A DNA stretch of 64,000 bases from Lentisphaera araneosa HTCC2155. GTDB lineage: Bacteria; Verrucomicrobiota; Lentisphaeria; Lentisphaerales; Lentisphaeraceae. The translations under genes and the position numbers were made by a program. Below the pieces are notes generated by a model that saw only the letters and a program-made list of their open reading frames with translations, had not been told where the DNA came from and made no database searches. The stretch spans positions 1-64,000 of the forward strand of contig NZ_ABCK01000017.1 in NCBI RefSeq assembly GCF_000170755.1, given 5' to 3'. This document shows positions 19,961 to 55,682 of this stretch, one piece after another. Position 1 is the stretch's first letter; each line of letters starts with the position of its first letter.

Positions 19961-20266
19961 ATGTCTGAAAAAGCAAGAAACCATATTAGCAGTGCAGAGA
20001 AAGTGTTAGCTGTTAAACGTCATTTACTCGAAGGAGTCGAGGTATCGGTAATTTGTGAAGAGTTAGATATCAACCCAAATCGTTTCTATGAATGGCAAAG
20101 TAAGCTCTTTAGCAATGGATCAGAAGCGTTAACACCGTCAAAGGAATCGCGAGCGGTCAAGAAAAAGATTGAAACTTTAGAGTCAAAAATTCGTCAAAAA
20201 GATCAAGTCGTCGTAGAACTTGCCAGCGAACTGATCGAAGCCAAAAAAAAAGCTGGGGAACTTTAA
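19961..20266 (+). CDS. IS3-family transposase OrfA
   Basis: The 101-residue OrfA has an N-terminal helix-turn-helix (EKVLAVKRHLLEGVEVSVICEEL ... NRFYEWQ) for terminal-repeat binding, then a C-terminal coiled coil or leucine zipper (IETLESKIRQKDQVVVELASEL). The A9G tract at 20243-20252 lies seven codons before its stop. AAGGAAT lies about 5 bp before the ATG. It functions alone as a regulator and, fused to OrfB, as the transposase. Confidence 0.9.
   Translation: MSEKARNHISSAEKVLAVKRHLLEGVEVSVICEELDINPNRFYEWQSKLFSNGSEALTPSKESRAVKKKIETLESKIRQKDQVVVELASELIEAKKKAGEL
20243..20252 (+). promoter_or_regulatory. Programmed -1 ribosomal frameshift site A9G
   Basis: Nine A followed by G includes the slippery heptamer A-AAA-AAA in the OrfA frame. 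Slipping back one base makes the next codon AGC (20251-20253) and opens the OrfB frame without a stop. A-rich heptamers at this place are the established mechanism for OrfAB fusion in IS3-family elements. Confidence 0.85.
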
Positions 20267-21282
20267 ATAAACTTTGGGTTGAGCCTGATTTACGCGATGA
20301 GATCGTTGATTTCGTAGCTGATAAGAAGGCTCAATGCAAAATAAGCGAAGAACGCCTACTAGTATATATCGGCATTAGCCGAAGGAGGTTTTATGACTGG
20401 AAACAAGCTCATGGAGAACCTCGGAAATACTCTGATAACTTTATACGGACGAATATGATTACGAATCAAGAGAAAGAGGCTATTATTGATTTCTATCTAT
20501 GCCACCCTTCGGATGGCTATCGTCGTTGTGCTTACATGATGATTGATCAGGATATTGCCTACGTTCAACCATCTTCCGTATACAGGGTCTTAAGCAAAGC
20601 TGGCGTTATGAGAAACCGTAACGCCAAAGAAAGTAAAAAAGGTACAGGCTTTGTACAGCCGCTAAAGGCTCATGAACAATGGCATTCCGATATTACTAAC
20701 ATCACTGCTGGTGATACGGTGTATTATCTAATCAGTATTCTCGATGGATATAGCCGCTCCATTATTGCCTGGGAATTAAGGGAAAGTATGAAAGTGCAAG
20801 ATGTTAATATCGTTTTTCAAAAAGCTAAGGAACTTTATCCTGAGGCTCGACCACGGTGCATCAGTGATAACGGCTCACAATACAAATGTAAGGAGTTTTC
20901 ACAATTCATTACCCGCAATGAATATTCACATACAAGCACATCGCCTTATTATCCGCAAAGTAATGGCAAGCAAGAGCGTTTTCACGGCTCTCTGAAAAAG
21001 GAATGTATCAGAGTTAATTGCCCTTTGAGTATGGCTGATGCTAAGCGTCTTATCGGCGAATATATTGAGTATTACAATACCCAGAGGCTTCACAGCTCTA
21101 TTTACTATATCGCTCCACATGACAGGCTTAATGGTCTCACGCAACAGATTCTTGACAAGAGAGATCAAAAATTAAAACTGGCTAAACAAAAGAGAATGGA
21201 AAGCAATTCCATAATCTCAATGCAGCCACACTTCTCAAAAAACACCTCAATGGAGGGGGAGGTTGGTGGAATGCGGGGATAA
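20251..21282 (+). CDS. IS3-family transposase OrfB, expressed as an OrfAB fusion
   Basis: In the -1 frame from 20251 the reading is open for 343 codons. It begins SWGTLNKLWVEPDLRDEIVD, continues through an HTH_21-like region (GYRRCAYMMIDQDI) and then the rve integrase core. The DDE triad is visible: D in WHSDITN, D in CISDNGSQY and E in GKQERFHG. Fusion with OrfA at the A9G site gives a transposase of about 440 residues. OrfB has no good start codon of its own near the beginning; an internal ATG at 20455 would lose the N-terminal part. The element appears intact and potentially active. Confidence 0.9.
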   Translation, partial: SWGTLNKLWVEPDLRDEIVDFVADKKAQCKISEERLLVYIGISRRRFYDWKQAHGEPRKYSDNFIRTNMITNQEKEAIIDFYLCHPSDGYRRCAYMMIDQDIAYVQPSSVYRVLSKAGVMRNRNAKESKKGTGFVQPLKAHEQWHSDITNITAGDTVYYLISILDGYSRSIIAWELRESMKVQDVNIVFQKAKELYPEARPRCISDNGSQYKCKEFSQFITRNEYSHTSTSPYYPQSNGKQERFHGSLKKECIRVNCPLSMADAKRLIGEYIEYYNTQRLHSSIYYIAPHDRLNGLTQQILDKRDQKLKLAKQKRMESNSIISMQPHFSKNTSMEGEVGGMRG

Positions 21283-21380
21283 ATGAATGATTAAGGACTT
21301 ATCGGTTATTGATTTTTTAATCGCCTATGATAGGTCTATACCACCCAGCTTAAAATCGATTTCATTTTGAGAAGTTTTAG

Positions 21381-22280
21381 ATGAACCAAGACAAATCTAT
21401 CAAATCCCGTATGGAGCAGAGCATGAAGACGCATATTTCAGCGAATGAAGCAACTTACGGACCACAACAATATAAAACTTTTGCTGGAGCTTTAACAGCT
21501 TTTTTCTCAGAGGAGTGTCCGCAACTGGGAGGAATGAGGACTCGGCAAGTTTTGAGCTCAACTATTATCTCTATGGTCAATAAATTCTATCCCGAAACTT
21601 CTCATTTAAAACAGGGTCAGACGCCATGGGTGACCACTGACAAAAATGCGACTAAATCATACGGAAAAAAGATCAATCAAACACCTTTAGTGAGTGTTAT
21701 CCTAGATTTAGTACGAGCAGAAGATATTCAAGAGCGCAAAGACGGTAAGAAGCTCAGAGACATAAAAAAGGAAGCTGTTGCAAGGGTGCTCAAACAAAGT
21801 TATAAGCAAGGTGGCTGTATGACCTCGGTTGAATTAGCCATTCTTTTAAAGATCTCTCCACCAACTGTGGGTAAGTATATTAAAGAATGGGAACTGGAAC
21901 ACAATGAGGTCTTACCTCGAAGAGGTTCAATACATGATATGGGGCCAACTCTCACGCACAAAAAAATTATAATTGAAAAACTTTTCATAAAGAAACTCAG
22001 CGTTCAACAAGTAAGTCGTGAGACTTATCATTCATTCCAGGCTATCCAGCGTTATATCAGCAAATTTAAACAGGTTCTTATCTGTTATAAGAAGGGCATG
22101 AATATCAATGAGATCGCCAAAGTTATTGGAAATACATCCCGGTTAATCAAAGAATATGAAGCTATCATCTTGGAGTACAAAGACCGAGGGTTTGTTTTAG
22201 AGCAAATCATCAATACGGACGCAAAGGTGGACTCACAATACGAAACCATCGTCAATGACTTGAACTCTCAGAAAAACTAA
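21381..22280 (+). CDS. DUF1670-family protein B
   Basis: This 299-residue paralogue of the protein at 19026 has an HTH-like segment (SVELAILLKISPPTVGKYI), then LPRRGSIHDMGPTLTHKKIII matching the PTRGQQKDIGPGVTH core of protein A, then SFQAIQRYISKF and a final HTH-like segment (NEIAKVIGNTSRLIKEY). Its N-terminal 100 residues differ from protein A, so the two may have separate roles in one unit. GAGAAG lies 7-12 bp before the ATG. No catalytic motif is recognised. The gene ends 11 bp before the inner inverted repeat. Confidence 0.8.
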   Translation: MNQDKSIKSRMEQSMKTHISANEATYGPQQYKTFAGALTAFFSEECPQLGGMRTRQVLSSTIISMVNKFYPETSHLKQGQTPWVTTDKNATKSYGKKINQTPLVSVILDLVRAEDIQERKDGKKLRDIKKEAVARVLKQSYKQGGCMTSVELAILLKISPPTVGKYIKEWELEHNEVLPRRGSIHDMGPTLTHKKIIIEKLFIKKLSVQQVSRETYHSFQAIQRYISKFKQVLICYKKGMNINEIAKVIGNTSRLIKEYEAIILEYKDRGFVLEQIINTDAKVDSQYETIVNDLNSQKN

Positions 22281-22290
22281 ATATCTGTAC

Positions 22291-22324
22291 GTAAGGGGAC
22301 AAATACACCTCACGGACAAATGAC
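22291..22324 (-). repeat. Right bipartite inverted repeat of the DUF1670 unit
   Basis: Read on the minus strand from 22324: GTCATTTGTCCG, a short spacer, GTGTA, TT, then TGTCCCCTTA ending at 22292. The spacer between arms is shorter than on the left side and lacks the hairpin. Confidence 0.65.
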
Positions 22325-22352
22325 CTTATTTATTATGCTTTGATAAGGCCAT

Positions 22353-22919
22353 TCATTTGCAATATGTACCCACCTTTTCGTCAAGGGCTTGCATTAAATC
22401 ATCAAATTTTATAATCTTTAAAACTCGTTTTAAATTATAAGCGAAATGTGCAAGTGAGCATTCAGCCAGGACCATTTCCTTACCGAGAACTAAAAAACCA
22501 TTGGTAAGAAACTGAGTTTTAATTGTCCCATATGGGTGCTCAACTGTTCCTTTACGTGTAGCCATCATCACTTTGTTTTCGAGAATCCTTGGTGTTGCTC
22601 GTTCTTGATATTGCTGATGCTCCCAACGTGATAAAATGCGTTTTTTTGCTGTCGTACAACGGTGCTTTATAGAACAAGTATCGCATGCATTTTTGTTAGC
22701 ATATTGATTAAATAATCGGCCCCTTTGAGAGGTAGTTCTAATTTTCTTTAAAGTACTTTTATGGGGGCACAGATAAGTATCTTTTTGTGGATCATAAATA
22801 ATGGCTTCTTTTCGATACATTCCTTGTTGTACATTTGATGACTTATTAACTATTGGTAAGTAGGGGATAATCCCCATAAGCGCTAAACAGAATAAATCAT
22901 TCTGTAGTGTGTTTTTCAC
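22353..22919 (-). pseudogene. C-terminal fragment of an IS1182-like transposase
   Basis: The 188-codon frame resembles the end of IS1182-type transposases. It has GIIPYLP, YLCPHKSTL, a Cys cluster CDTCSIKHRC, and VEHPYGTIK carrying the last acidic catalytic residue, then HFAYNLKRVLKI. The N-terminal half with the first two acidic residues is missing. The open frame starts right beside the terminal inverted repeat, so an internal deletion fused the IS end to the middle of the gene. The product should be inactive. Confidence 0.8.
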
Positions 22920-23111: not shown

Positions 23112-26100
23112 TTAGCGTAAATCGTCTCTTAACTGTAGAACTTCGTTGAAGAAGGCACCCATGGATTTACTGTCGCTCGTAGCGTTAAAGCCAGGGGAGA
23201 AGTCTTTGATACGATAATCTTGGTTTTTGATATCTTTGAAGCCTGCTTTGTCCTTAAGGCAGTCCTTTAGATCTGAGATATGATCATCCAGTTCATCTAA
23301 TGAATAGATCTGAAGTTTATTGATGACAGCTAGTGGGCCTGTATTTGAGAGCAGTGACGATTTGATTTTCACGTTAGCTTTTTTTGTCGATGAGTTGATA
23401 ATTGGCCCTTTTTCAGAGTGTAAGATTGAGTCTTCAATAATCGCTTTATTGAGGTTGACGAGTATGGGGTCAGTTTTGTCTATTTTAGCAAAAATTGTTG
23501 AGTGATTGATGATTACTTTTTGTGTGGTGGTGTTTGATTTGAAGTATCTTATAAAAGAATTTTGAACAAGAATATCGGAAGATTTTCCAGTTGAATTCAC
23601 ACCGCCTTTATGGAAGAAGCAGTTGATAATATTGATTTTACTAGAGTCACTTTCAATATTAATGTCGCCATCATAAAAGGTGAGGTTTTTAACGGTAAGA
23701 TCGTCTCCACTAAGAACAATTGAGTTCTGTAGTTTGACGCCTAGGGCACCAATGAGTTTTACCTTCTTATTTTTTAAAATAATACTATCATTGTATGAAC
23801 CTGGGAGGAGGCGTATGGTACGATTATTTGCTATGACTAGGCTCTCGAAGTTTGGATATTTCGACTGAGAATTGGGGCCGACAAAAATATCATTTTTATA
23901 ATCAATTTTAATCAAGTTTTTTAATGTGTCGTAAACTGCCAAGATGATCGAGTCATCGCTATTTAGATAACGTGAGTTCTTAAAATCTTTAATTAAATTA
24001 GATAAGAGAAGGCGTAGGCATATAGCGTCATCTTCAGAAATGGTGTTGAGTGAAATAGTATCTAGACTTGTAATATTATATAGATTGAAAATGGCGAGAG
24101 ATTTTGCCTCAACTACTCGGTCAATTTCATTATGGCTTTGCTCTATTAATTCCTTATTTAGAGGGCCTTTATATGTTTCTAGTTGAGCAGCGGCAGCAAC
24201 TGTATTTTCATTAAGTAAAGAGTATAAAAAGCGTGCAAATTTTGTTTCTTGTTCCGAGTCGAAAGTCAGGTATTTAATTTGAGTTTCAAAATTAAAGTTG
24301 GATAAATCTACACTTTGCTTGAGCACCTTGCCTTGAAAGGAACTAGAGATTTGAATTGTTTTCTCATCTAAATCACAACTTAGAACTTTTGCTTTGATAT
24401 TTTTCCCGTTGATTAGTAAGTCATATACTTCATTATTGGAAAGCGCTAAATTATTTAAAATACTATTCTTCAAGAGATCATGATTAATGAGTTCAATAAG
24501 CTTTCTAATTTCAGCGATATTAGCTAATCCGGAAAGCCTCTGTAAATGGCCATCAATTTGAATGGTGTCAAGTTTATAAATAGCTTGAGCTAAGAATTCT
24601 TTCTGCTCAGTAAGTTCATGTTCTTTTAAATTTTCTACAGTCACAGTAGGAGGTAGGGCAGTGTCACCTGATGCAAGTTTATCTTTAATGATAGATTTTA
24701 AGTTTTCCATGAGACTGTTACGTGTTTCAAGGCTTTCTGTAGCCAAAGAGCCATCATAGTTTTTATAGACCTCAATTGCATCAGTGTATTGTTTTTTAAA
24801 CATTAGAGTGTTGACTTCACTTCTAAGTTCAATGATAATACGTCTAACGGCATTTTCTTTAGCTTCTTTAATGTCATTATCAATGGATTTTATGAGGTTT
24901 ATTTGATCGTCAGCAGCATTGTTTTTGTCATTGTTAAACTTTTCACCTATAGAGGCAAAATCTGGCTCTGCTTCTTTCAAGGCTTCTGAGTACCAAGTTC
25001 TGTCAATAATGACAGGCTCTTTTATTGTCTCTTCTTTTGTTTCTTCAGCTAAAGCTGTGTCAGTGCCTTCCTTCGCACCTGTGATTTTCAAGTCAGGCTT
25101 ATTAGTGTCATTTTCATTCTTAAGATCATTAGATTTATCGGTTACTGCCTCTTCTTTTGTGTCGGCCAACTTATCAGTGTTAGCCAATTTATCGTCAGCA
25201 GTGGGGGTATCTACAATTGGCTCTTGTTTTTTTGTTGAGTGTTTCGCATAAATGAATATACCACCTGAAATTATGGCTAGGAGAAAAATAATTGAACATA
25301 TGATGGCAGCTACAGGGCTATCTTTCTTTTTCTGTTGAGTGCGTCGTGCTCTATTGTTTGCTATTGGACGAGGAGTTGCTCGACGTATCTCGCTAGTCGA
25401 CTGAATAGATTGTTCAATGACCGGAGGTGCTTCATGTTTATTTTTACGTTTACTTCTTGATGGTTTTTCTCGAGAGGACTCTTTTTGAGTATTACTTGCT
25501 TGTGGATCTTTTTGAAGCCCGGTATTTGTTCTTTTGCGATGGACTCGCTTTGGATTGCTAAGTTTTTCATGAACATCTTTCGAGATACCAATATCAACAG
25601 AAGTTTTGATTCTGTCTTGTATTACTTCTTTGGATAAAGGTTTGAGGTTAAATGCAGTTGAAGCAGCGGAGCTGACATTTTTGAAATGTGGGCTGACTAG
25701 TTTTACAAAATCGTTTTTCTCATAGATTTCAGTTTTGGTGCCTGACATTTGTTTAGTCAAGGAGTGCCCGATGTTCTCATAATAAGTTTCAATCATTTTC
25801 ATGACTTGACGATATGAATTCATTCGCTGTATCGGTTCACGTTTTGACATATTCTTGAGAATAAATAGGAAGTCTTCATCAAGTTCGACTTCGACGCGTT
25901 TTGGGATGATTAATTCTGAAGGATTAAATTCTCCAGAAGGTGTGCTGTGCGGTGTGATACCCGTGATTAAGTAATAGAGAAGCATTCCTAAAGAATAGAT
26001 ATCACAAGCTTCGTTGGGAAATTTTGAGCTATAGGTTATCTCAGGGCTTATATAATATATATCAAAGATTTGCATCTGTGATTTTACAAACCTCACATCT

Positions 26101-26705
26101 TGGAGTAGATGAACTGCAATACCAAAATCGTTATATAAAAGGTTGCCTTTATCATCGATAAAGATGTTTCTAGGCGTTAAAGAAAAGTGTCCACTGCGCG
26201 TTGCAATATAGGCTTCATCTAAGGAGAGTAAGAGCTCATATATAAGATCTAATGCTTGAATAGGATCCCATATGTAGCCTGAATCGATGAGTTTTTCAAG
26301 GCTTTCAATTTTTGTAAAGGGCATGACTTGGTAAATAAAGTCGTCATCAATTGCCGATTTATGAATGGGGAGTTGACTACTACCTCCATGCGGACTTAAA
26401 TCTTGTGCAAGTTCGAGGAAAACTTCAGGTTGTTGAAGTGAGTATGTAAGGGTTTTGTCAAAAACTCGGAGTAGTTTAATTTTATTTGATTTTGTATCTA
26501 AACAAGCAAAGTACGAGCTAAAGCCATCATCGGATACTTTATATAATGCTTTATACCTCTTTTGAATGGTATTTCCTGCAGACATACGTCCACGTCTAAG
26601 CTGAATTGTATCATTACAATTAGGACAACGCAAGCTGTCAACAGATGCATTAGCATCTATGTTGACTTTGCTATTACAGCTTAAGCAGGTGAGAGAGAAG
26701 TTCAT
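23112..26705 (-). CDS. Zinc-ribbon pseudokinase with membrane span and C-terminal beta-helix (paralogue 1)
   Basis: This is a 1197-residue membrane protein. It has a zinc ribbon C7xxC10/C27xxC30, a Ser/Thr-kinase-like domain at about 50-310, a basic linker, one membrane helix at about 464-486 and an acidic, helical outer region. A right-handed beta-helix-like repeat follows at about 950-1130 (TIRLLPGSYNDSIILKN, LIGALGVKLQNSIVLSG). The kinase fold is recognisable (ALDLIYELLLSLDEAY, IYYISPE, DIYSLGMLLYYLITG). The catalytic Asp of HRD is Ser175 (HFS 173-175), the DxKPxN Lys is Thr, the VAIK Lys is Arg80 and no glycine loop is present. DFG (193-195) is kept. It is therefore predicted not to phosphorylate but to bind ligands or partners. 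It lies downstream of its paralogue, with 135 bp between them. Confidence 0.85.
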   Translation of the reverse strand: MNFSLTCLSCNSKVNIDANASVDSLRCPNCNDTIQLRRGRMSAGNTIQKRYKALYKVSDDGFSSYFACLDTKSNKIKLLRVFDKTLTYSLQQPEVFLELAQDLSPHGGSSQLPIHKSAIDDDFIYQVMPFTKIESLEKLIDSGYIWDPIQALDLIYELLLSLDEAYIATRSGHFSLTPRNIFIDDKGNLLYNDFGIAVHLLQDVRFVKSQMQIFDIYYISPEITYSSKFPNEACDIYSLGMLLYYLITGITPHSTPSGEFNPSELIIPKRVEVELDEDFLFILKNMSKREPIQRMNSYRQVMKMIETYYENIGHSLTKQMSGTKTEIYEKNDFVKLVSPHFKNVSSAASTAFNLKPLSKEVIQDRIKTSVDIGISKDVHEKLSNPKRVHRKRTNTGLQKDPQASNTQKESSREKPSRSKRKNKHEAPPVIEQSIQSTSEIRRATPRPIANNRARRTQQKKKDSPVAAIICSIIFLLAIISGGIFIYAKHSTKKQEPIVDTPTADDKLANTDKLADTKEEAVTDKSNDLKNENDTNKPDLKITGAKEGTDTALAEETKEETIKEPVIIDRTWYSEALKEAEPDFASIGEKFNNDKNNAADDQINLIKSIDNDIKEAKENAVRRIIIELRSEVNTLMFKKQYTDAIEVYKNYDGSLATESLETRNSLMENLKSIIKDKLASGDTALPPTVTVENLKEHELTEQKEFLAQAIYKLDTIQIDGHLQRLSGLANIAEIRKLIELINHDLLKNSILNNLALSNNEVYDLLINGKNIKAKVLSCDLDEKTIQISSSFQGKVLKQSVDLSNFNFETQIKYLTFDSEQETKFARFLYSLLNENTVAAAAQLETYKGPLNKELIEQSHNEIDRVVEAKSLAIFNLYNITSLDTISLNTISEDDAICLRLLLSNLIKDFKNSRYLNSDDSIILAVYDTLKNLIKIDYKNDIFVGPNSQSKYPNFESLVIANNRTIRLLPGSYNDSIILKNKKVKLIGALGVKLQNSIVLSGDDLTVKNLTFYDGDINIESDSSKINIINCFFHKGGVNSTGKSSDILVQNSFIRYFKSNTTTQKVIINHSTIFAKIDKTDPILVNLNKAIIEDSILHSEKGPIINSSTKKANVKIKSSLLSNTGPLAVINKLQIYSLDELDDHISDLKDCLKDKAGFKDIKNQDYRIKDFSPGFNATSDSKSMGAFFNEVLQLRDDLR

Positions 26706-26840
26706 GTGTGTATTTATTTAATATACAATGTATTTTTACTACAATTGTAAAATATTAGAATTGATAATGTATGTTTTAATTACATTAATATAGACGTTTT
26801 AATGATAACTTACCTCATATTTTTAGAATTAAGTTTGATA

Positions 26841-29800
26841 TCAGTATAATAAAATAAGCGTATCATTCATCTGAACACCAATAGAAAGTCTTTGGTAACC
26901 TTTTAAATATCCAGGAGATTTTGGACTTAACCTGAAGTCACCTTGTCTTTGATTCATAAATTTTGATTGATCTTTCAAGCAAAAATTTATTTGCGAGAAG
27001 ATTGGCTTTAATTCATTAAGTATAGCGATGTTATGGTGTTGGTCTTTAACTAAGTAGTAATCGCTAGAAAATAAGCAATAACGTAATTTAAAATCATTAT
27101 ATTTTTGAAGATTTGTAAAAATTGGAGTGTTATCTGCGATAAAGATACAATTCAAAAATTGAGTTCTTTTGGGTGAACCAGATACACTTGATTTTAGTTT
27201 GTTATTTGGGAAGATTAATGAATTCTGGATGTTAATTTTTTTTGCGGAATCAGCAATACTAATTCCATTGAAGATACAGTTGTTGATTTCGATATTTTCA
27301 GTATTAGGGGAGAGTTTAAAGCTACCATTTTTTAAATTTGTATTTAATATTTTTATTGATTGGATATTTTGGTCTATGATAATGTTACCGGAATGAAGAT
27401 TTAAGTTTTTGAGTTCACAGTTTGTTGCTTGGATTAGGATGTCAGTGTGGATTTGTACACCATTACACCCAATGAGCTGAATGTTGTTTTGCTTGATGAC
27501 TATTGGCGTTTTATATATGCCTGGAAGTAGCCTGATTGTCGTGTTTTTATTATTTAATGCGAGTGCTAATCGGGGGAGTTTGAACTGAGAGTCACTTCCG
27601 ACAATGATTTCATGTTGTATGGGAGGAAGTGTTTTTGATTCTAGCTCTGTAAGGTATTTGGCAATCAAATCCTTTTTTATTAGTGTGAAATCGGCTAGTT
27701 GATATTGTTTTTGAAGTTCTTTGATTAACTTTATTAAAGCTATTTGGTTATCAATGCTAAAGCCTGAAAAATTAATTTCAGAACCAAACTTTTGGTGAAA
27801 ATTCTTAAAAAGGATCTCATAGGCCATTTCGAGTTCAGAATTTAGCAGTTGTTGAACGAGAGGTTTTAGAGATTGTGCGAGAGGTCCTTGATACGGAGTT
27901 AGATAGCGATACGCTTCGGTATAATCGTCGTTTTGTAAAAGAAAGATGAACCTTAAGAAAGCTTGCTCGTCGGTATTATTTTGCTCAATCCATGTGACTA
28001 GATAGCGGGGATTAAGTTTTTTAAAGGGTATGTTTAGATTTAGATTGTTAGCTTCATGATAAACCTTTACGGAAATATGCTCAGCATCAAAATTATAGGA
28101 GTTGAATTCAGCGTCTATCATTCCCCCTTGGTAATTGATCGGGATGATGGGGTCATTCGAGCTTAGGATCGCAGTAAAAATTCTTTTCAATAAATGTGAC
28201 TTGTTTGACTCTTGAATTAATTTGTTTAGGCTTTGAAGAGTTTTTTCTTTGCCAGGTATCTTTAATTTGGCAGATGTCTTTATTGCACCTGCAATATCAT
28301 TATTGACTAATTGTAGGGCAAGAAGCTGAAGTTTATCTTCCTTTGGAGTTTCTAAATTGGGTTGTGCTTTTTGAATATTATTTGATATTTGTTGACGTTC
28401 CAAAGATGTTTTTTGAGCGAGATAATCGGAATAGTTGTCGACAATTTTTATAGCGGCTGATTTTTTGTTTTCCTTGATTAGGGGTAAAGTTTTAGATTCA
28501 AGTCGATTGAGGACTCTTTTTTTCTGTTCGTTCAATCTCTGGTGACTTGTTTTTTGTATGAGCATTAATTTTTGAGCGTCGTCTTCTGACGCCACCTGTA
28601 AATCATGGGTCATCTGTTGGAGGATTTTATCAAAGTTAGGGAGCTCTTTATTCAATTCTTCTTTGTAAAATGAAAAATTAACTGAGCTTTCTTTGGGTCG
28701 TACTTGTAGATTGGTGTTACCATTTTTAATATCATCAACTGACGCATTAGTTTTGGCTTGGTTTTCATTTGAGTTTTGAGAAATAATTATAGGTTTAGAA
28801 TTTAAAGGTGTGTAAGGGGGGATTTGCTTAGTTTCATGAATAAGTAAAAATGCACAGATGGTGAGTACTGCTGCCGCTACAATGATGTAAGTTAAAAGTG
28901 AGCGTCTCTTTTTTGCCTTACCGGCAGTTTTTGAGCGATTGAGCATTTGGCTATGAGGCCGTTGTTGCAGGCGTCTTTTTTTGGTTTGATGAGGGTGGAT
29001 TATTTTTGTTTTAAACTCTTTTGGTAAGTAAGCCTGGGTTGAGATTTTTTGCCTTATAATCTCAGAGTTGTAGTTCGCCTTACTTTTGATAGTTAGTGAT
29101 TTAGGCTTCTTTTTGACTTGTGGTAAAACGTGCTGAATAAAATGCTGTGATTGATAAAGAAGTGTTTTTTCGCCTTCCATTTGTTTGAGTCTTACATGGC
29201 CAATAGAGTTATAGTACTGGTCAATGGCATTAATGAGTTGCCGGTAGGACTGAAAGCGATGGTTTCGTTCTTTATGTGTGATGTTTTTGATGATTTGCAG
29301 GAATTCTTCATCTAACAACTCTAAGGTTGTATTTGGAAAGGTGAGTTCTTGTTTAAGGATTTCGCTTTTATCTTCAGCCGGCCCCAAAGGGGTGAGTCCC
29401 GTTACCATGTAGTAGATACAATGACCAAGGGAGTAGAGGTCGCTACTCTGGTCGGGGTAGTGTAGGCCTTGGACGAGTTCTGGACTAGTGTAGTAGATGT
29501 CAAAAATATTAAACCCGCATGAGGCAAATCTAGAGTCCTGTAGCAATTGCGGAGCTAAAGAGAAATCAAAGAATTTTACTAAACCATCATTATCAATGAA
29601 TATATTATGGGGAGTGAGGTTAAAGTGTCCGCTGCCAGTAATTGAATATGCGTGGTCTAAGGACTCTAAAATATCATAGCATAGGTCTAAAGATTGAAGG
29701 GGACTCCATAAAAAATCATTATCGATGATCTCTTCAATTGATTCGAGCTTCATGTAGGGCATGACTTGATAGAGGTATTGATCAAAATATGCAGAGTGTA

Positions 29801-30143
29801 AAATTGCTAAGTGATTATCTGAAGCATTAGTTGAACTGGCTTCCATAATGTCTTTTACATCATTTGGCGAACTTACTGCAGAGTAAAAACTTTTATCAAA
29901 CACTCGAGTTAAAAAGAGCTGACCTTCATTCTTGTCAAAACTAACGAAAAGTTTACTGAAACCATCATCGTTGATTTCATAAACAGTCGTTAGGTCTTCA
30001 TTTAAGTCAACACCCTCGGCCATGCTGTCGGGGCGTATTTGTATTTCACTTTGACAATTAAGGCATGGATACTGCTCGTTGATTTCAGCAGAATCTAATG
30101 TAATTTGATAAAGGCAATGTTTACAAGTTAGAATAAATTTCAC
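26841..30143 (-). CDS. Zinc-ribbon pseudokinase with membrane span and C-terminal beta-helix (paralogue 2)
   Basis: This 1100-residue paralogue of the previous gene aligns without gaps over the first 240 residues: zinc ribbon C7xxC10/C27xxC30, Arg80 in place of the VAIK Lys, and HFN (173-175) in place of HRD. DFG has become DFS (193-195), so it is even more degenerate. A membrane helix lies at about 416-436. The outer part has a helical region, then a beta-helix-like repeat (TIRLLPGIYKTPIVIKQN, LIGCNGVQIHTDILIQ). The two genes look like a tandem duplication with diverged outer regions. The kinase-like part would face the cytoplasm and the beta-helix the periplasm. Confidence 0.85.
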   Translation of the reverse strand: MKFILTCKHCLYQITLDSAEINEQYPCLNCQSEIQIRPDSMAEGVDLNEDLTTVYEINDDGFSKLFVSFDKNEGQLFLTRVFDKSFYSAVSSPNDVKDIMEASSTNASDNHLAILHSAYFDQYLYQVMPYMKLESIEEIIDNDFLWSPLQSLDLCYDILESLDHAYSITGSGHFNLTPHNIFIDNDGLVKFFDFSLAPQLLQDSRFASCGFNIFDIYYTSPELVQGLHYPDQSSDLYSLGHCIYYMVTGLTPLGPAEDKSEILKQELTFPNTTLELLDEEFLQIIKNITHKERNHRFQSYRQLINAIDQYYNSIGHVRLKQMEGEKTLLYQSQHFIQHVLPQVKKKPKSLTIKSKANYNSEIIRQKISTQAYLPKEFKTKIIHPHQTKKRRLQQRPHSQMLNRSKTAGKAKKRRSLLTYIIVAAAVLTICAFLLIHETKQIPPYTPLNSKPIIISQNSNENQAKTNASVDDIKNGNTNLQVRPKESSVNFSFYKEELNKELPNFDKILQQMTHDLQVASEDDAQKLMLIQKTSHQRLNEQKKRVLNRLESKTLPLIKENKKSAAIKIVDNYSDYLAQKTSLERQQISNNIQKAQPNLETPKEDKLQLLALQLVNNDIAGAIKTSAKLKIPGKEKTLQSLNKLIQESNKSHLLKRIFTAILSSNDPIIPINYQGGMIDAEFNSYNFDAEHISVKVYHEANNLNLNIPFKKLNPRYLVTWIEQNNTDEQAFLRFIFLLQNDDYTEAYRYLTPYQGPLAQSLKPLVQQLLNSELEMAYEILFKNFHQKFGSEINFSGFSIDNQIALIKLIKELQKQYQLADFTLIKKDLIAKYLTELESKTLPPIQHEIIVGSDSQFKLPRLALALNNKNTTIRLLPGIYKTPIVIKQNNIQLIGCNGVQIHTDILIQATNCELKNLNLHSGNIIIDQNIQSIKILNTNLKNGSFKLSPNTENIEINNCIFNGISIADSAKKINIQNSLIFPNNKLKSSVSGSPKRTQFLNCIFIADNTPIFTNLQKYNDFKLRYCLFSSDYYLVKDQHHNIAILNELKPIFSQINFCLKDQSKFMNQRQGDFRLSPKSPGYLKGYQRLSIGVQMNDTLILLY

Positions 30144-30222: not shown

Positions 30223-30888
30223 TCATCCACGAATAGAGGAGATCAGTTGAGTAAAATTCTCGTATGCTGAGCTTGCAGCGACGAAATAAGTGTTGATGTT
30301 CGTAAAGGAAGGAGTGAAAAATACAAAGATACAAAAGACGATAAAAGTATTTATGTAGGCCAATAAGGTGGCTGAGAAAAAATGGCCAGGTTTATCAAAA
30401 TCACTCTGCTTAGTTTTGATTATCAAACGAGCATTCATGTAGATGTGGTGTGCGAATGAACTTCCGATTATAAATGTAAAAACAATGCTGGCTTGATCTT
30501 GGTGTTTAAGAAGGGGTAAAAGAAAAAATAAAGGTAGAAGGGCCACTGTTAGCGTTGGGAAAAAATAAGGTGCTAACATGACAAAGGTATTTGGTTTTTC
30601 GACTTCAACAGAGCCTGACTTGAAACCAAAACTAAACTTACCCGTTTTCTTACGACAGATCTTGGCGGCTAACCAGTGAGCCATTTCATGGCCGAAGACA
30701 TAAATAACTTCGAATCGACAAAGAAATTTAAAAGTGATAAAACCAGCGATAAAACCAGCTAGAAACCACACAGAATCCGAAGATAAGCTTTTGTCTTTTA
30801 CAATAAGTACAATAGCAAAGAGATTTAAGCCTGTAGCGAGTATGAACAGTGGCGCTAAAAGTATGTTTTTAAAAAAAACCTTAAACAT
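30223..30888 (-). CDS. M50-like membrane zinc metalloprotease
   Basis: This 221-residue integral membrane protein has about six hydrophobic segments. The sequence FGHEMAHWLAAK gives an HExxH zinc motif (H67, E68, H71) next to a membrane helix, as in M50/site-2-protease-like families. The C-terminal DPG-type third ligand is not obvious; a KPGHF segment at about 177 might be related. It lies just upstream of the pseudokinase pair in the same direction, so it may act with them. It is divergent from the ftsB-hemW operon. The substrate is unknown. Confidence 0.65.
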   Translation of the reverse strand: MFKVFFKNILLAPLFILATGLNLFAIVLIVKDKSLSSDSVWFLAGFIAGFITFKFLCRFEVIYVFGHEMAHWLAAKICRKKTGKFSFGFKSGSVEVEKPNTFVMLAPYFFPTLTVALLPLFFLLPLLKHQDQASIVFTFIIGSSFAHHIYMNARLIIKTKQSDFDKPGHFFSATLLAYINTFIVFCIFVFFTPSFTNINTYFVAASSAYENFTQLISSIRG

Positions 30889-31303: not shown

Positions 31304-32431
31304 ATGTTTTCCGCAGTTGAGTTCGACTCACTTTATATCCACGTCCCTTTCTGTAAAAATATTTGCGATTACTGCACACTGTATTCTGTCGTAGAGAATT
31401 CAAAAGAAATTCGTCAGCAGTACTTATCAAAAATTCAGAATGAACTTAATGCTTCTCTTGAGCAATTAGATAATTTAAAAACTATCTTTATCGGTGGGGG
31501 GACTCCCAATGCCCTTAGTTCCGATGAGCTAGAGCAACTTTTGCATTCCATTCAGGCGCTCAAAATCCCATCTGAATTTACGGTGGAATGTAACCCCGCA
31601 AGCATTACGGAAGAGAAGTTGCAATTGATGCAAAATTATGGTGTCAATCGCTTGAGTTTTGGAGGACAATCTACCTCACGTAAAACGCGTAAGGCACTGG
31701 GGCGAAGAACGGGTGATGTTGAATTATTCAAAGCTATTGATTTGGCACAAAAATTCGGATTTAAAAGAATTAACGTAGATTTGATTTATGCGGTGCCAGG
31801 TCAAACGCTTGCAGATTGGCAGTATGATGTCCAACAAGTTTTGAGCCAAGGAATACGTCACTTTTCGGCTTACAGTCTCATCTTAGAAGAGGGTGCAGAG
31901 ATTACCAAGCGAATTAAAGAAACAGACGATGATTTAGCTGTGGAGATGTACCACCTTTGCGAAGACCTTTTAAAAGAGGCTGGTTTAGAGCGTTATGAAG
32001 TTTCGAATTATGCGGTGCCAGGCGAAGAATGTCGCCATAATTTAGGGATCTGGCATGGAGCCAAATATTTAGGTTTAGGTCCTGCCGCCGCCTCTTTTGA
32101 TGGGCTTTTGCGATGGACGCAAAAAGCCGATTTAAAAGCTTGGTTAAATGGCGAAAAAGCTAAGCTCGATGAAATTCCTTTAAAAGAGCGGGTCGCAGAG
32201 GTCTTAGCTTTTGGATTCCGTACCAAAATGGGGTGGCAAAAAGAGCTACTGCATTCATTATACGGTAGTGAAGTTTTAAATGAGTATAAAGATATATTGG
32301 ATAAGCTAGTGATTCAGGGATTATTAGAAGAGACAGCGAGCTACATTCGCGCAACTGAGCAGGGCCTGCTTTTTGCTGATGAAATTGCATCTGTTTTGAT
32401 TGATTATTCTCAGGAGACAATGAGCTCATGA
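31304..32431 (+). CDS. hemW: HemW-like radical SAM heme chaperone
   Basis: The 375-residue protein starts YIHVPFCKNICDYC, giving the CxxxCxxC cluster (C17, C21, C24), followed by IGGGTPNALS, RLSFGGQS and VDLIYAVPGQT, the HemW/HemN-type TIM-barrel motifs. HemW proteins were long annotated as oxygen-independent coproporphyrinogen oxidases but carry heme to target proteins. The extra N-terminal Cys typical of true HemN is absent, supporting HemW. Its stop overlaps the next gene by ATGA. Confidence 0.9.
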   Translation: MFSAVEFDSLYIHVPFCKNICDYCTLYSVVENSKEIRQQYLSKIQNELNASLEQLDNLKTIFIGGGTPNALSSDELEQLLHSIQALKIPSEFTVECNPASITEEKLQLMQNYGVNRLSFGGQSTSRKTRKALGRRTGDVELFKAIDLAQKFGFKRINVDLIYAVPGQTLADWQYDVQQVLSQGIRHFSAYSLILEEGAEITKRIKETDDDLAVEMYHLCEDLLKEAGLERYEVSNYAVPGEECRHNLGIWHGAKYLGLGPAAASFDGLLRWTQKADLKAWLNGEKAKLDEIPLKERVAEVLAFGFRTKMGWQKELLHSLYGSEVLNEYKDILDKLVIQGLLEETASYIRATEQGLLFADEIASVLIDYSQETMSS

Positions 32432-34758
32432 AGTTCCAGTGCGTATTATGTAAATCGACTTATCAAGCAGAAAGTTTGGAGCTAGGAACGAGTAAAAATT
32501 GTCCTACATGCTCTAAGAAAATTGTTGTACCACGTAAGATTTATGATCCAGGTAGAGTGATCGGTAACGATTTTGTTATTGAAAAAGTCGTTGGTATTGG
32601 TGGCATGGGTACAGTGTTTTTGGCTCGCCAAATTAGTTTAGATCGTCCAATAGCGCTTAAAGTCCTCCTACGTCGTTATTCTGCCGATAGTAAATTCCGC
32701 CAAGAGTTTTTGCGAGAAGCGCAATCAGTTGCCTCGATGATTCACGGTAATCTGGTTCAAGTTTTTGCCTTTGGTGTTGATGAGAGTGACTTATACTTAG
32801 CAATGGAATACGTAGAAGGTGATACTTTAGGGGATCGCATTGAGAAGAACGGCAAGATAGACGTAATCGATGCTCTAGGTGTTGTTCAACAGGTGACTGA
32901 AGGCTTGCATTACGCTTGGGAAAAAGATTCTCTTATTCACCGCGACATCAAACCTGATAATATAATGATCACTGCTGATGGTTGGGTGAAACTCACCGAC
33001 ATGGGACTGGCTCGTCAACAAAGAGATTTACAAGACGTGAAAGAAGTTTCTGGAACGCCAGCCTATATGAATCCCGAACAGTTTTTGAAAGACCCCATGG
33101 ATTGTCGTGCAGATATTTACAGTTTGGGCGTTGTTTTATATCATTCAATTACAGGTGCACTGCCTTTTGATTCGGAAAACGTTAGCGAATTAGCACGCCA
33201 GCATCTTCAAGACCCCGTTATCTTTAACAACCGTCGTGTGGACCTACCGATAGATGTGAGAAAACTCATCACTAAGATGATGGAGAAGTCCCCAGAGAAG
33301 CGTTTCCTCGATCATGAAGCCTTACTTAAAGAGCTGATTAAGGTAAGGAAAGCTTTAAGTAAAGATCCAAGCCTCGTCCCAGGTATTCATACAATCTCCT
33401 TTAGTCGTAAAGATATTGGCGAACTCAAAATTGGTAGTAAAAAGAAGAAAGAGGCTAATTCATTAGAATCTCTGCCTAGAAAGAAAGTCCGTAGCCTAAG
33501 TGCGAGTGATGATTATCAAGATGCGGAAGCTTTATTGATGAGTGACGGTCACACTTCTACATCAAATATTTTTTGGACAAACTTGGTGGCAATAACTGCC
33601 GTGGCTGCAGCACTTGTGGTGTCAGTCTTTTCGAGTCCGTCAAAGAAAGTTTATGAAGTTGAAGCAGAGAGTTTGCTACAAAGAATTATGCAAGGTGAGC
33701 TACAGCTCGAACGTAGTAAAGTCGAGCTTGGAAAAGTCTTACAGGAACTTCCCGAAGAAGGTAACGTAAGAGAAATGACTCTTAGAGCTAAAGTATTAAC
33801 GGTATTGAACTCAGTTGAGCTGAAGGAAAAACAAGCCTTGCAACTTCAGTTGGAGAAGAATTCAGAAAAATTAACCAGTGTCGTTCGTGAAAAAGCTCTC
33901 TTAATCAATACCATGAAGCAAAAGAAGAAAGAAGAAGGCCAGCAAGAAAGTCTTTTTGCTCGTACTTTGGAAGAGCTAACGCAATCTGAAGAAGCGATTG
34001 CAAAGACAGGACTTGAGGCGCAACAGAAAAACGAAGTACCTCAGCTGATTTTCAATGATGCTTTCATGTTAGATAAGCTTTGGTTGGATGCAAAAACAAA
34101 AATTTTGATGACGAGTTTTAAAGAAGTTTACCTTTGGAAGCCAAGTAATGCTTTAGAGGTTATTGCGGGACAGAAATCTGAACTTTATGGTTCGTACTTA
34201 GCAGAAGTTAATGATTTAGAAAAATTGATTGGCATTGCTCAAGAGTTTCAGCTTAAGTTTATCAAAGGTTTAGGAACACTTGAAGGTGAATCTTTGTTAT
34301 TGCCAGGCGGTGAACTGTCTGATATCTCGCTCACTGTTTATTCGGTAGATGAAGAAGAGATCGAAATAAAGGATAGTTATGGCAAGACGTATAAGGTTCC
34401 GCAACTGCCTATGGTTCAACAAAAGTATATTTATGACGAAATGTATCCAGGTAATACGGACAATGAGCTTTATGCAACTTATGCACTTTGCGCTTTAAAA
34501 TTCACCGAGGCGGTAGAGAACGGAGTTGATACTGATATGAGTGAAGTTGTTTTTGATCATTACGTTCATAATCGTTTTACACTAATTAATAACTATTTGA
34601 AAAGCAATCTTCAAAGTCGAGCACGTGAGAGTGGACTTAAACTCTTGCAAGGTGCAAAACTTTTTCCAAGTAAAATTAACATGATTCAACAAAAATTGGA
34701 TAGAACTTTAGGAGAAGGATGGAACTATGAGTCAAGAGCTACTGAGAACGGATTATAA
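32428..34758 (+). CDS. Zinc-ribbon Ser/Thr protein kinase with membrane span
   Basis: The protein has 776 residues: zinc ribbon C5xxC8/C25xxC28, then a complete Hanks-type kinase domain. The glycine loop GIGGMGTV is at 56-63, catalytic Lys78 in IALKVL, HRDIKPDN at 171-178, and DMG at 191-193 in place of DFG. GTPAYMNPEQ gives the activation segment. A membrane helix lies at about 381-402, then a coiled coil at about 405-520 and a novel periplasmic region. All catalytic residues are present. It overlaps hemW by 4 bp and glgE by 32 bp, so it is tightly coupled to glgE. Unlike the two kinase-like proteins at 23112 and 26841 it should be active. Confidence 0.92.
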   Translation: MKFQCVLCKSTYQAESLELGTSKNCPTCSKKIVVPRKIYDPGRVIGNDFVIEKVVGIGGMGTVFLARQISLDRPIALKVLLRRYSADSKFRQEFLREAQSVASMIHGNLVQVFAFGVDESDLYLAMEYVEGDTLGDRIEKNGKIDVIDALGVVQQVTEGLHYAWEKDSLIHRDIKPDNIMITADGWVKLTDMGLARQQRDLQDVKEVSGTPAYMNPEQFLKDPMDCRADIYSLGVVLYHSITGALPFDSENVSELARQHLQDPVIFNNRRVDLPIDVRKLITKMMEKSPEKRFLDHEALLKELIKVRKALSKDPSLVPGIHTISFSRKDIGELKIGSKKKKEANSLESLPRKKVRSLSASDDYQDAEALLMSDGHTSTSNIFWTNLVAITAVAAALVVSVFSSPSKKVYEVEAESLLQRIMQGELQLERSKVELGKVLQELPEEGNVREMTLRAKVLTVLNSVELKEKQALQLQLEKNSEKLTSVVREKALLINTMKQKKKEEGQQESLFARTLEELTQSEEAIAKTGLEAQQKNEVPQLIFNDAFMLDKLWLDAKTKILMTSFKEVYLWKPSNALEVIAGQKSELYGSYLAEVNDLEKLIGIAQEFQLKFIKGLGTLEGESLLLPGGELSDISLTVYSVDEEEIEIKDSYGKTYKVPQLPMVQQKYIYDEMYPGNTDNELYATYALCALKFTEAVENGVDTDMSEVVFDHYVHNRFTLINNYLKSNLQSRARESGLKLLQGAKLFPSKINMIQQKLDRTLGEGWNYESRATENGL

Positions 34759-53574: not shown

Positions 53575-54367
53575 ATGAATTACAAAAATAATGAAACAAT
53601 CTGCAACTACAAAGCAGAAAAACTGCTCGATCTCTTTCAAATAAGTTCGGAAGATATTGAATTAATTCAAGCTGCTGGGGAAGAATATTCAGAAAGTCTA
53701 TTGGGAGGAGTTTCTTAAAGCTAGTATTGATGAAGATTATGTGCTGAGCCGAGAGACGGTTGGTTTAACTCATGCTCGCATTGGCTTGTCGCTTTCGGCT
53801 TACTTTGTAGCTGTTGACCACAGTTTATTTATTTGGATCAAAAGGATTTTATCCTCTAAATGCGAGCATGATTTAGATGCGATTTGTCGTGCTTTCACCA
53901 AGTTAGTTCATTTGGATACAATGATAGTGGTCGAAGCGTTTAGCTTCATGACTAACAAAACAATTTCAAAACAGAGTCAAGCGCTCATGGAAATGTCGAC
54001 TCCAGTGACGGAAATTTGGGATGACATTCTGATGTTGCCATTAGTTGGGATCATTGATTCCAAACGAAGCCAAGATGTAATGAATTCCATTTTGAGCAAG
54101 ATAGCTCAGACCCAAGCAAGGATTTGTATCTTAGATATTAGTGGTGTGGCAGTGGTTGATACAGCCGTGGCCAACCACTTGATAAAAATCAGTAAAGCCA
54201 CACGTCTTATGGGCTGTGAATGTAATTTCTCTGGGATTTCTCCAGCCATTGCTCAAACTATTGTAGAGCTTGGGATTGATGTGGGTTCTATTCGTACTAA
54301 CTCAAATTTGAAAGATGCATTAAATCACGCCTTTGTCAGTCAAGGCATTGGTATTGTGAAAGGTTAA
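53575..54367 (+). CDS. Globin-coupled RsbR-type stressosome protein, frame broken near 53703
   Basis: The N-terminal sensor-globin segment starts at 53575 (MNYKNNETICNYKAEKLLDLF) but hits a stop at 53716-53718. The downstream frame continues EEFLKASIDEDYVLSRETVGLTHARIGLS. One G too many in GGG at 53703-53705 explains it. The restored protein has about 263 residues (B. subtilis RsbR 274). The THARIGL motif (His66) is the conserved proximal heme ligand region of sensor globins. The C-terminal STAS domain has ILDISGVAVVDT and ISPAIAQTIVELGID, so both RsbR phospho-threonines (VVDT and AQT) are present. Heme-based sensing of oxygen, as for Vibrio vulnificus RsbR, is inferred. Confidence 0.88.
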
Positions 54368-54374
54368 TTTTTCT

Positions 54375-54734
54375 ATGAATCATGTACCCGGACATTTTAT
54401 AGAGAATTACTTACTCTATGCAATGCCAAGTGAATTGCCTGAGAAAGAGTTTTTAGACTTTAGCCAATTTCTTTTAAATGAAGTGACTAAGAAACATGTC
54501 GAGTATTTAATTTTAGATTACTCGGCTTATCGAATTATGGATAGAACTGATTATCTAAGGTGCTGTGGGCTCGTTAAAAAAGTTCAAATCATGGGGGTCG
54601 GAGTCATTAATCACGGTTTAAATGCAGGTTTAGTAAGTACGCTTGTCGATTTAGTTGATGATTTTCAAGGGATGGAATTTGCGGGGAGTTTAGAGGCGGC
54701 GTTGGCGCTTGTGGGTAAGAATGCAAGCACTTAA
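54375..54734 (+). CDS. RsbS-like STAS-domain protein
   Basis: The 119-residue single STAS domain is placed where rsbS lies between rsbR and rsbT. It keeps the fold pattern (VEYLILDYSAYRIMDR, then VGVINHGLNAGLVSTLVDL). The site that aligns with the phosphorylated Ser59 of B. subtilis RsbS (VDS) is Arg57, followed by Thr58. The family GMRPAVAIT segment reads GLNAGLVST. It is a divergent stressosome scaffold whose switch may use Thr58 or be lost. 7 bp separate it from rsbR. Confidence 0.8.
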   Translation: MNHVPGHFIENYLLYAMPSELPEKEFLDFSQFLLNEVTKKHVEYLILDYSAYRIMDRTDYLRCCGLVKKVQIMGVGVINHGLNAGLVSTLVDLVDDFQGMEFAGSLEAALALVGKNAST

Positions 54735-55116
54735 TTGCTATATCTATAATGACGTGTCAGTCTCAACGGGGATTATAGAAGCTCGCGAATGGTTGGACGA
54801 GTGTATGAGTGATAAACAAGTCAAAAGTCTGTTGCTGACAGTATTTGCGGAGTTAGCACAAAATATTATTAAATATGCTAACAGAGGGAAGATACTATTG
54901 GAGTGTACAAAGTTTGAGGGTAAGGACTGTGTGATGATTTGTTCAAAAGATAATGGACCCGGCATAGAGAAGATTGAAGATGCTTTGAGTGAGAATTTTA
55001 GTACATCGGGAACATTGGGCTTAGGTCTCCCAGGGATTAAGCGCATTATGGATGAGTTTCAGATTGAGTCGGAACTTGGTGTGGGGACCGTAGTAAGGAC
55101 GTTTAGATACTTATGA
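54721..55116 (+). CDS. RsbT-like switch kinase
   Basis: The 131-residue GHKL-type Ser/Thr kinase has the N-box AELAQNIIKYANRG, DNGPGI and the G2-box GTLGLGLPGIKRIMDEF. RsbT phosphorylates STAS proteins of the stressosome and is then released to act on its target. The start is set at the ATG 54721 (MQALNCYIYND); a GTG at 54709 is also possible. It overlaps the upstream STAS gene by 14 bp and the downstream gene by ATGA, so the four genes are translationally coupled. Confidence 0.9.
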   Translation: MQALNCYIYNDVSVSTGIIEAREWLDECMSDKQVKSLLLTVFAELAQNIIKYANRGKILLECTKFEGKDCVMICSKDNGPGIEKIEDALSENFSTSGTLGLGLPGIKRIMDEFQIESELGVGTVVRTFRYL

Positions 55117-55682
55117 ATGTGGCGATAAAAGTTCAGGCTTTATTAGGTGAGCGTCACTGTGGTGATATGGGGCTGTATAGAGAATTTAATAATGGAAGCC
55201 TTTTAGCCATTCTTGTGGATGTGACGGGGCATGGAGATGAAGCAGGCCGTTTAGCTAAGAAAATTGAATCTCGACTCGTTTTTCAAGAAGATCAGGAAGT
55301 TGAGTCCTATCTCGATGTCGTTAACGAAATTTGCCGTGGTGAAATTGGTTGTGCGGCTGGAGTCGTGAAAATTAGTACTGATAATCGCTTTACTTACGCG
55401 GGAGTCGGTAATGTGTTGTGCCACATTTATAGAAATAACGAAAGTAAAAGTTTAGTGTCTAAGGACGGTATGCTAGGTGTGAGAAAAGGGAGCTACTTCA
55501 AACAAGAATATCAATTGGAGCCAAAGAATTTGGTTTTGATGCACACTGATGGTTTAAGTGATTTTAGTAAAAAAGAGCTGTTTTTTTTAGAGCATGAGAA
55601 CATAAATTCAATAGTACATCGGCTCGTGCGCGATTGTGGAAAAATGACTGATGATATGGGATGTCTGGGGATAAAAATATGA
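55113..55682 (+). CDS. RsbX-like PP2C-type phosphatase
   Basis: The 189-residue minimal PPM/SpoIIE-type phosphatase carries LVDVTGHGDEAG (metal-binding Asp36), GVGNV, LMHTDGLSDF and the final DDMGCLGI. RsbX resets the stressosome by dephosphorylating RsbR and RsbS. It is the fourth gene of the R-S-T-X module. The next gene starts at an overlapping ATGA. Confidence 0.88.
   Translation: MNVAIKVQALLGERHCGDMGLYREFNNGSLLAILVDVTGHGDEAGRLAKKIESRLVFQEDQEVESYLDVVNEICRGEIGCAAGVVKISTDNRFTYAGVGNVLCHIYRNNESKSLVSKDGMLGVRKGSYFKQEYQLEPKNLVLMHTDGLSDFSKKELFFLEHENINSIVHRLVRDCGKMTDDMGCLGIKI

Follow-up and report, generated by a model that had tools for sequence, protein, structure and literature searches.

Two adjacent genes of Lentisphaera araneosa HTCC2155 encode long proteins that each join a degenerate protein kinase domain to a β-helix through a single membrane-spanning segment. 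What might a kinase that appears unable to phosphorylate do at the membrane, and what might the β-helix contribute? The genes, here called A and B, lie on the minus strand of the window, the whole 64,000-nucleotide stretch that was analyzed (contig NZ_ABCK01000017.1, positions 1 to 64,000), and the genome (6.02 Mb in 81 contigs) has a third paralog, C, on contig 39. Bacterial pseudokinases have been little studied, and this family could make non-catalytic transmembrane kinase signaling in bacteria testable. It is suited to this because it has a defined architecture, forms one clan with a shared rewiring, and occurs as natural sets of paralogs in cultured Lentisphaera hosts.

Architecture and topology

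Gene A (23112..26705) encodes 1197 amino acids and gene B (26841..30143), which begins with a GTG start codon, encodes 1100. A first-pass annotation of the sequence had taken them for paralogs without gaps over their first 240 residues. Both open reading frames are indeed real and homologous over their whole length, with an end-to-end BLASTP alignment (27% identity, 46% positives, E = 4e-125) that is ungapped through residue 240. The word giant that it applied to them was overstated, since about 1.1-1.2 thousand residues is usual for this architecture.

Each protein begins with a zinc-ribbon-like CxxC...CxxC motif at residues 5-35 (26601..26693 in A and 30039..30131 in B, all coordinates in A and B being on the minus strand). 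The cysteines C7, C10, C27 and C30 are invariant in the Lentisphaeraceae family alignment, and the ribbon of A makes a weak match, below the cut-off, to Pfam Zn_ribbon_4. The kinase-like domain follows (residues about 45-311, 25773..26573 in A; about 45-313, 29205..30011 in B), and then a single transmembrane helix found by hydropathy in each protein (467-485, 25251..25307 in A; 417-435, 28839..28895 in B). Beyond it lie a helical stalk and a right-handed β-helix. In B the stalk (486-840, 27624..28688) and the parallel β-helix (845-1095, 26859..27611) were located in an AlphaFold2 model. In A the stalk (23901..24995) was placed by homology to the modeled stalk of B, and the β-helix (23121..23888), whose first coil is RLLPGxY, by the fold of the B model and a profile match of 3.9e-79, A itself being among the rows of that profile.

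We infer from the sequence an N-in, C-out topology. With one transmembrane helix and an N-terminal cytoplasmic kinase-like domain the β-helix should lie in the periplasm, and the stalk is likewise predicted to be periplasmic. The arrangement proposed at first pass, a pseudokinase inside and a β-helix outside, is supported by sequence, predicted structure and conservation across the clan. Its further proposal of a surface sensor or cell-cell factor found no such support; the outer part is predicted to be periplasmic, and no gene for export, adhesion or cell contact was recognized nearby. A sensor role for A and B as such is plausible.

The kinase-like domain

The kinase-like domains of A and B match Pfam Pkinase with E-values of 3e-15 and 6.5e-21, respectively, both above the cut-off. 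Assignment to the bilobal protein kinase fold (PF00069 superfamily) follows from this match together with AlphaFold2, Foldseek and the conserved residues of the C-lobe, where such kinases have the HxxxxxxN and APE motifs, the αF aspartate and a late arginine. Yet the VAIK lysine, the αC glutamate, the HRD aspartate and the glycine loop are all replaced in A, B and C, and by sequence none of the three would be expected to be a catalytically competent Ser/Thr kinase. The VAIK position is Arg80 in both A and B, and this arginine is invariant across the Lentisphaeraceae set. At HRD, A reads HFS and B reads HFN, with HxN common to B and C. These losses had been noted at first pass, and that of the αC glutamate is now added to them. 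The position of DFG is occupied by DFG in A, DFS in B, GFT in the orthologs of B and GFG in C. The annotation had one protein lacking DFG, which is right for the motif of B as a whole, although DFS keeps the metal-binding aspartate.

The replacements follow a pattern. Among 24 pseudokinase domains the β3 lysine has become arginine in 20, and the HRD aspartate is asparagine in 21 and serine in 2. The catalytic-loop lysine of HRDxK is replaced by N, S or T in most of them, and the activation-loop GT has become [FW][DN] (22 and 23 of the 24 for the two positions). Other positions are retained, with H173, P221 and D235 kept in every domain and E222 and R296 in 23. In active kinases, as seen in PKA, the HRD aspartate, the HRDxK lysine and the activation-loop threonine contact one another. 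In the pseudokinase family all three have changed together.

Because the site has not eroded but shows a set pattern of rewiring, it might have acquired other chemistry. The domain would then have a different nucleotide-dependent transferase activity, employing Arg80, the retained asparagine, the DFG-type aspartate and the new Asp/Asn of the activation segment. Some bacterial pseudokinases do perform other chemistry (SelO, SidJ), and the ActPs2 and DYD families, which have a β3 arginine, are predicted to bind ATP (PMC12599244). Binding of metal or nucleotide may persist here too, since the DFG-type aspartate survives in many members. Nevertheless the glycine loop, αC glutamate, catalytic base and catalytic-loop lysine have all been lost, and in several members the DFG aspartate is itself replaced by Gly, Asn or Glu. 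We consider an alternative enzymatic activity quite improbable.

Predicted structures

Modeling of both parts by structure prediction had been suggested at first pass, and AlphaFold2 models based on B gave a kinase fold and a β-helix. Absence of either fold would have counted against the first-pass reading, and neither absence was observed. The model of residues 1-330, made from 10 input sequences of which two were active kinases, is predicted to have a kinase fold (pLDDT 84.4) with Arg80 lying within the β3 strand (residues 75-82). Compared with solved structures by Foldseek, the kinase domain of this model ranks Stk1, PknB and PknA first with a probability of 1.00. A PDB search used a profile that contained two active kinases, and its E-values are not counted for A and B alone.

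The model of residues 480-1100, from 8 input sequences that are all family members, has a pLDDT of 86.9 and is predicted to comprise the helical stalk, a small β-barrel and the right-handed β-helix. The barrel (666-706, 28026..28148) lies inside the stalk; its strands in the model are SH3/Tudor-like, with weak Foldseek matches to Tudor/Sm barrels (E = 0.6-0.9). The predicted β-helix, with a pLDDT of about 92 over residues 845-1079, has the features of a right-handed parallel β-helix. Among solved structures the closest to it in fold are PL6 alginate lyase, pectin methylesterase and chondroitinase B; the best Foldseek E-value is 5e-4 and the resemblance is at the level of the fold, with no membership of these enzyme families in sequence. 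Foldseek gave no strong match to any characterized binding domain. In the alignment no conserved catalytic set was recognized on the β-helix, and the invariant sequences (RLLPGxY, GD..RL..SPG) look structural.

The length of the stalk and the structural character of these invariants would suit a protein of the envelope, in which β-helix and stalk anchor or organize the periplasm and the pseudokinase is a mere docking tether in the cytoplasm. We think this unlikely, in that a tether does not obviously need a cytoplasmic domain that is the best-conserved part of the protein.

Distribution and origin

The family was searched across the phylum and the class and the loci were read; relatives include Lentisphaera marina and Lentisphaerales MAGs. 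Of the 198 class genomes 15, spread over four families, have the full architecture of kinase-like domain, stalk and β-helix; a contig edge truncates the kinase part in one of them. The Lentisphaeraceae, to which the window belongs, contribute all six of their genomes. In every protein with stalk and β-helix whose catalytic loop is readable the HRD aspartate is absent, the motifs being HFN, HFS, HYN, HQN, HLN and HGA. A search for further copies with HFx in place of HRD had been suggested at first pass; HFN and HFS are among the motifs of these proteins.

We scored 47 kinase domains, which are related sequences and not independent trials. Of those with a β-helix 22 are pseudokinases and 2 are active, compared with 5 and 18 for the others. 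The two active β-helix kinases (L265 and L273, with HRD/HSD kept) have a related β-helix without the stalk and group with the active kinases. A β-helix alone does not therefore imply a dead kinase. The protein at L265:2709-5264 (+) is apparently active, with HSD, DLG and VAVK. Other combinations were seen. A second type of pseudokinase (L216, L221; YG[HI], Gln at β3, NTI) has a related stalk and no β-helix. In genomes G004 and G005 a shorter HYN pseudokinase and a separate stalk ORF lie beside a full-length member (L058:9148-11351, L060:12098-14254), and are possibly a split copy. A kinase-like protein of a Lachnospiraceae genome (L178:6821-7819 (+)) has HYN and a β3 arginine and is located among FHA, active kinase and PP2C-like genes; its resemblance is probably convergent.

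A tree was calculated from 40 domains after masking 32 catalytic-motif columns and excluding seven long or doubtful rows, and a branch with support of 99/96 has all 22 pseudokinases on one side. This points to one clan. Long internal branches leave false attraction possible, but descent from a common ancestor is favored by the stalk and β-helix that the members share. The window and L. marina have 86% identity in the pseudokinase part of A and 74% in that of B, compared with 50-62% in the stalk and β-helix. That the pseudokinase is the best-conserved part argues that it is under selection and has a role.

A and B could also be regarded as duplicate kinases that are decaying without function. 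In genome G001 gene A is split by a one-base frameshift (a missing base) at a run of C (L054:11120-11320), which may be a sequencing error. Many genomes keep the frames at full length, derived motifs are shared, and no part is better conserved than the dead domain; we reject decay, which is contradicted by this pattern and has scarcely any likelihood. As an old conserved family with its catalytic site replaced in a fixed pattern, the dead kinase is probably a signaling switch or scaffold, and not an enzyme.

Comparison with known systems

In active-site chemistry the nearest known systems are ActPs2 and the DYD kinases, and in layout the PASTA kinases and EssB. ActPs2 shares the β3 arginine, and the change of HRD aspartate to asparagine with B and C, but A has HFS. 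ActPs2 is actinobacterial, with a mostly deleted DFG and an activation-loop insertion of about 250 amino acids (PMC12599244). In the A/B/C family, by contrast, residues are present at the DFG position, there is no long insertion, GT is changed to [FW][DN], and there are an N-terminal ribbon and a predicted periplasmic β-helix. The DYD kinases of actinobacteria and firmicutes (PMC12599244) similarly have a β3 arginine, lack the αC glutamate and are membrane associated. However, in these DYD replaces DFG and HRD is retained, whereas the A/B/C family has no DYD (DFG/DFS/GFT/GFG) and has lost the HRD aspartate.

EssB/YukC resembles A and B in its N-terminal cytoplasmic pseudokinase, single transmembrane helix and non-catalytic scaffold role, the last being our proposal for A and B. 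It is part of type VII secretion and its outer domain is different; no type VII secretion genes were recognized in the neighborhoods that were read. The PASTA kinases PknB, Stk1 and StkP share the kinase fold and the order of kinase, transmembrane helix and extracytoplasmic sensor, but they are catalytically active and carry PASTA repeats where A and B have stalk and β-helix. No PASTA repeat was matched in A or B, and A, B and C score 64-89 against a cut-off of 450 for the NCBIfam PASTA kinase model.

Because each of these systems fails at least one tested defining feature, we regard A, B and C as a new family within the known transmembrane bacterial pseudokinases. A review of bacterial pseudokinases names seven pseudokinase-rich families and does not mention Lentisphaerota, zinc ribbons or β-helices (PMC12599244). 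A full-text search of open-licence papers found no description of the ribbon-pseudokinase-stalk-β-helix architecture.

A possible mechanism

The computation itself gives the architecture, the predicted folds, the missing catalytic residues, the single clan and the strong conservation; the class of ligand and the direction of signaling we infer. A and B could well be non-catalytic receptors or scaffolds of the inner membrane with a polymer-binding β-helix in the periplasm, and this is the reading that we tentatively prefer. The β-helix on its helical stalk would bind a carbohydrate polymer, which might be exopolysaccharide made by the cell itself, material of its wall or a polysaccharide from algae. 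On binding, the single transmembrane helices would come to be spaced or dimerized differently, and the posture of the cytoplasmic ribbon and pseudokinase would alter with them. With no phosphotransfer involved, the pseudokinase would use its conserved C-lobe and rewired activation segment to dock a partner or control it allosterically, the simplest candidates being another paralog or an active ribbon kinase, of which there are many. More speculatively, and in our view doubtfully, this might hold for a receptor family of the whole class, in which N-x-D/N replaced, as one unit, the network of HRD aspartate, HRDxK lysine and activation-loop threonine. The outcome would be a signaling module that responds to ligand without phosphorylating, with a polysaccharide-binding β-helix to drive it.

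Genomic neighborhood

Orthologs of A, B and C are present in all three Lentisphaera genomes. The order of an M50-like gene, B and A is kept in all of them, adjoining a HemW-like gene (assigned from sequence), an active kinase and GlgE; in L. marina a transposase-like ORF lies between B and A. In the window a canonical ribbon Ser/Thr kinase with all its catalytic residues (HRD, IALK) is encoded at 32428..34758 on the plus strand, and is a possible partner of A and B. The stalk is not shared with this neighboring active kinase (E = 0.78).

The M50-like membrane protein (HEMAH; 30223..30888, minus strand) is encoded just upstream of B. Its HExxH motif, common strand and synteny in three Lentisphaera genomes raise the possibility that it cuts the receptor, thereby releasing the ribbon and pseudokinase. 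Such cleavage is highly improbable, as the gene is single-copy in 52 of 198 class genomes, many of them without the pseudokinase family, does not share a contig with the pseudokinase genes in G003-G005 and was not found in the f17 members. Being widespread and unlinked to the family outside Lentisphaera, it was rejected as a conserved partner. No non-family gene is consistently linked to the pseudokinases across families in the neighborhoods of the loci. A flavoprotein-like gene immediately precedes three distant members (L211, L212, L260) but none of the others.

Promoter-like sites were not above the shuffle background, and terminator-like sites are all on the plus strand, opposite to A and B. 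Directly beyond A are insertion-sequence genes (transposase ORFs, a DUF1670 protein and a DDE transposase; window 19961-22919).

Other kinases of the genome

The genome has 105 kinase-family places. Sixty-one aligned kinase stretches (for example L101, L110, L116 and L143) have alanine at the β3 lysine and lysine at the third glycine of the glycine loop (GGMK...VAxA), mostly with HLD and DWG. Judged by sequence, this lysine shift is WNK-like and affects more than half of the kinases of the genome. The eukaryotic WNK kinases have been called the only functional ePK family without the usual lysine (PMC1821047). Sequences that resemble these in a match to an N-lobe profile are widespread in the phylum. 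Elsewhere in the window (53741-59267, plus strand) genes for a STAS protein, a SpoIIE-type phosphatase and a histidine kinase are followed in a row by one for a fusion protein, in which a response regulator, an AAA-like (sigma-54 activator) domain and a canonical Ser/Thr kinase are combined.
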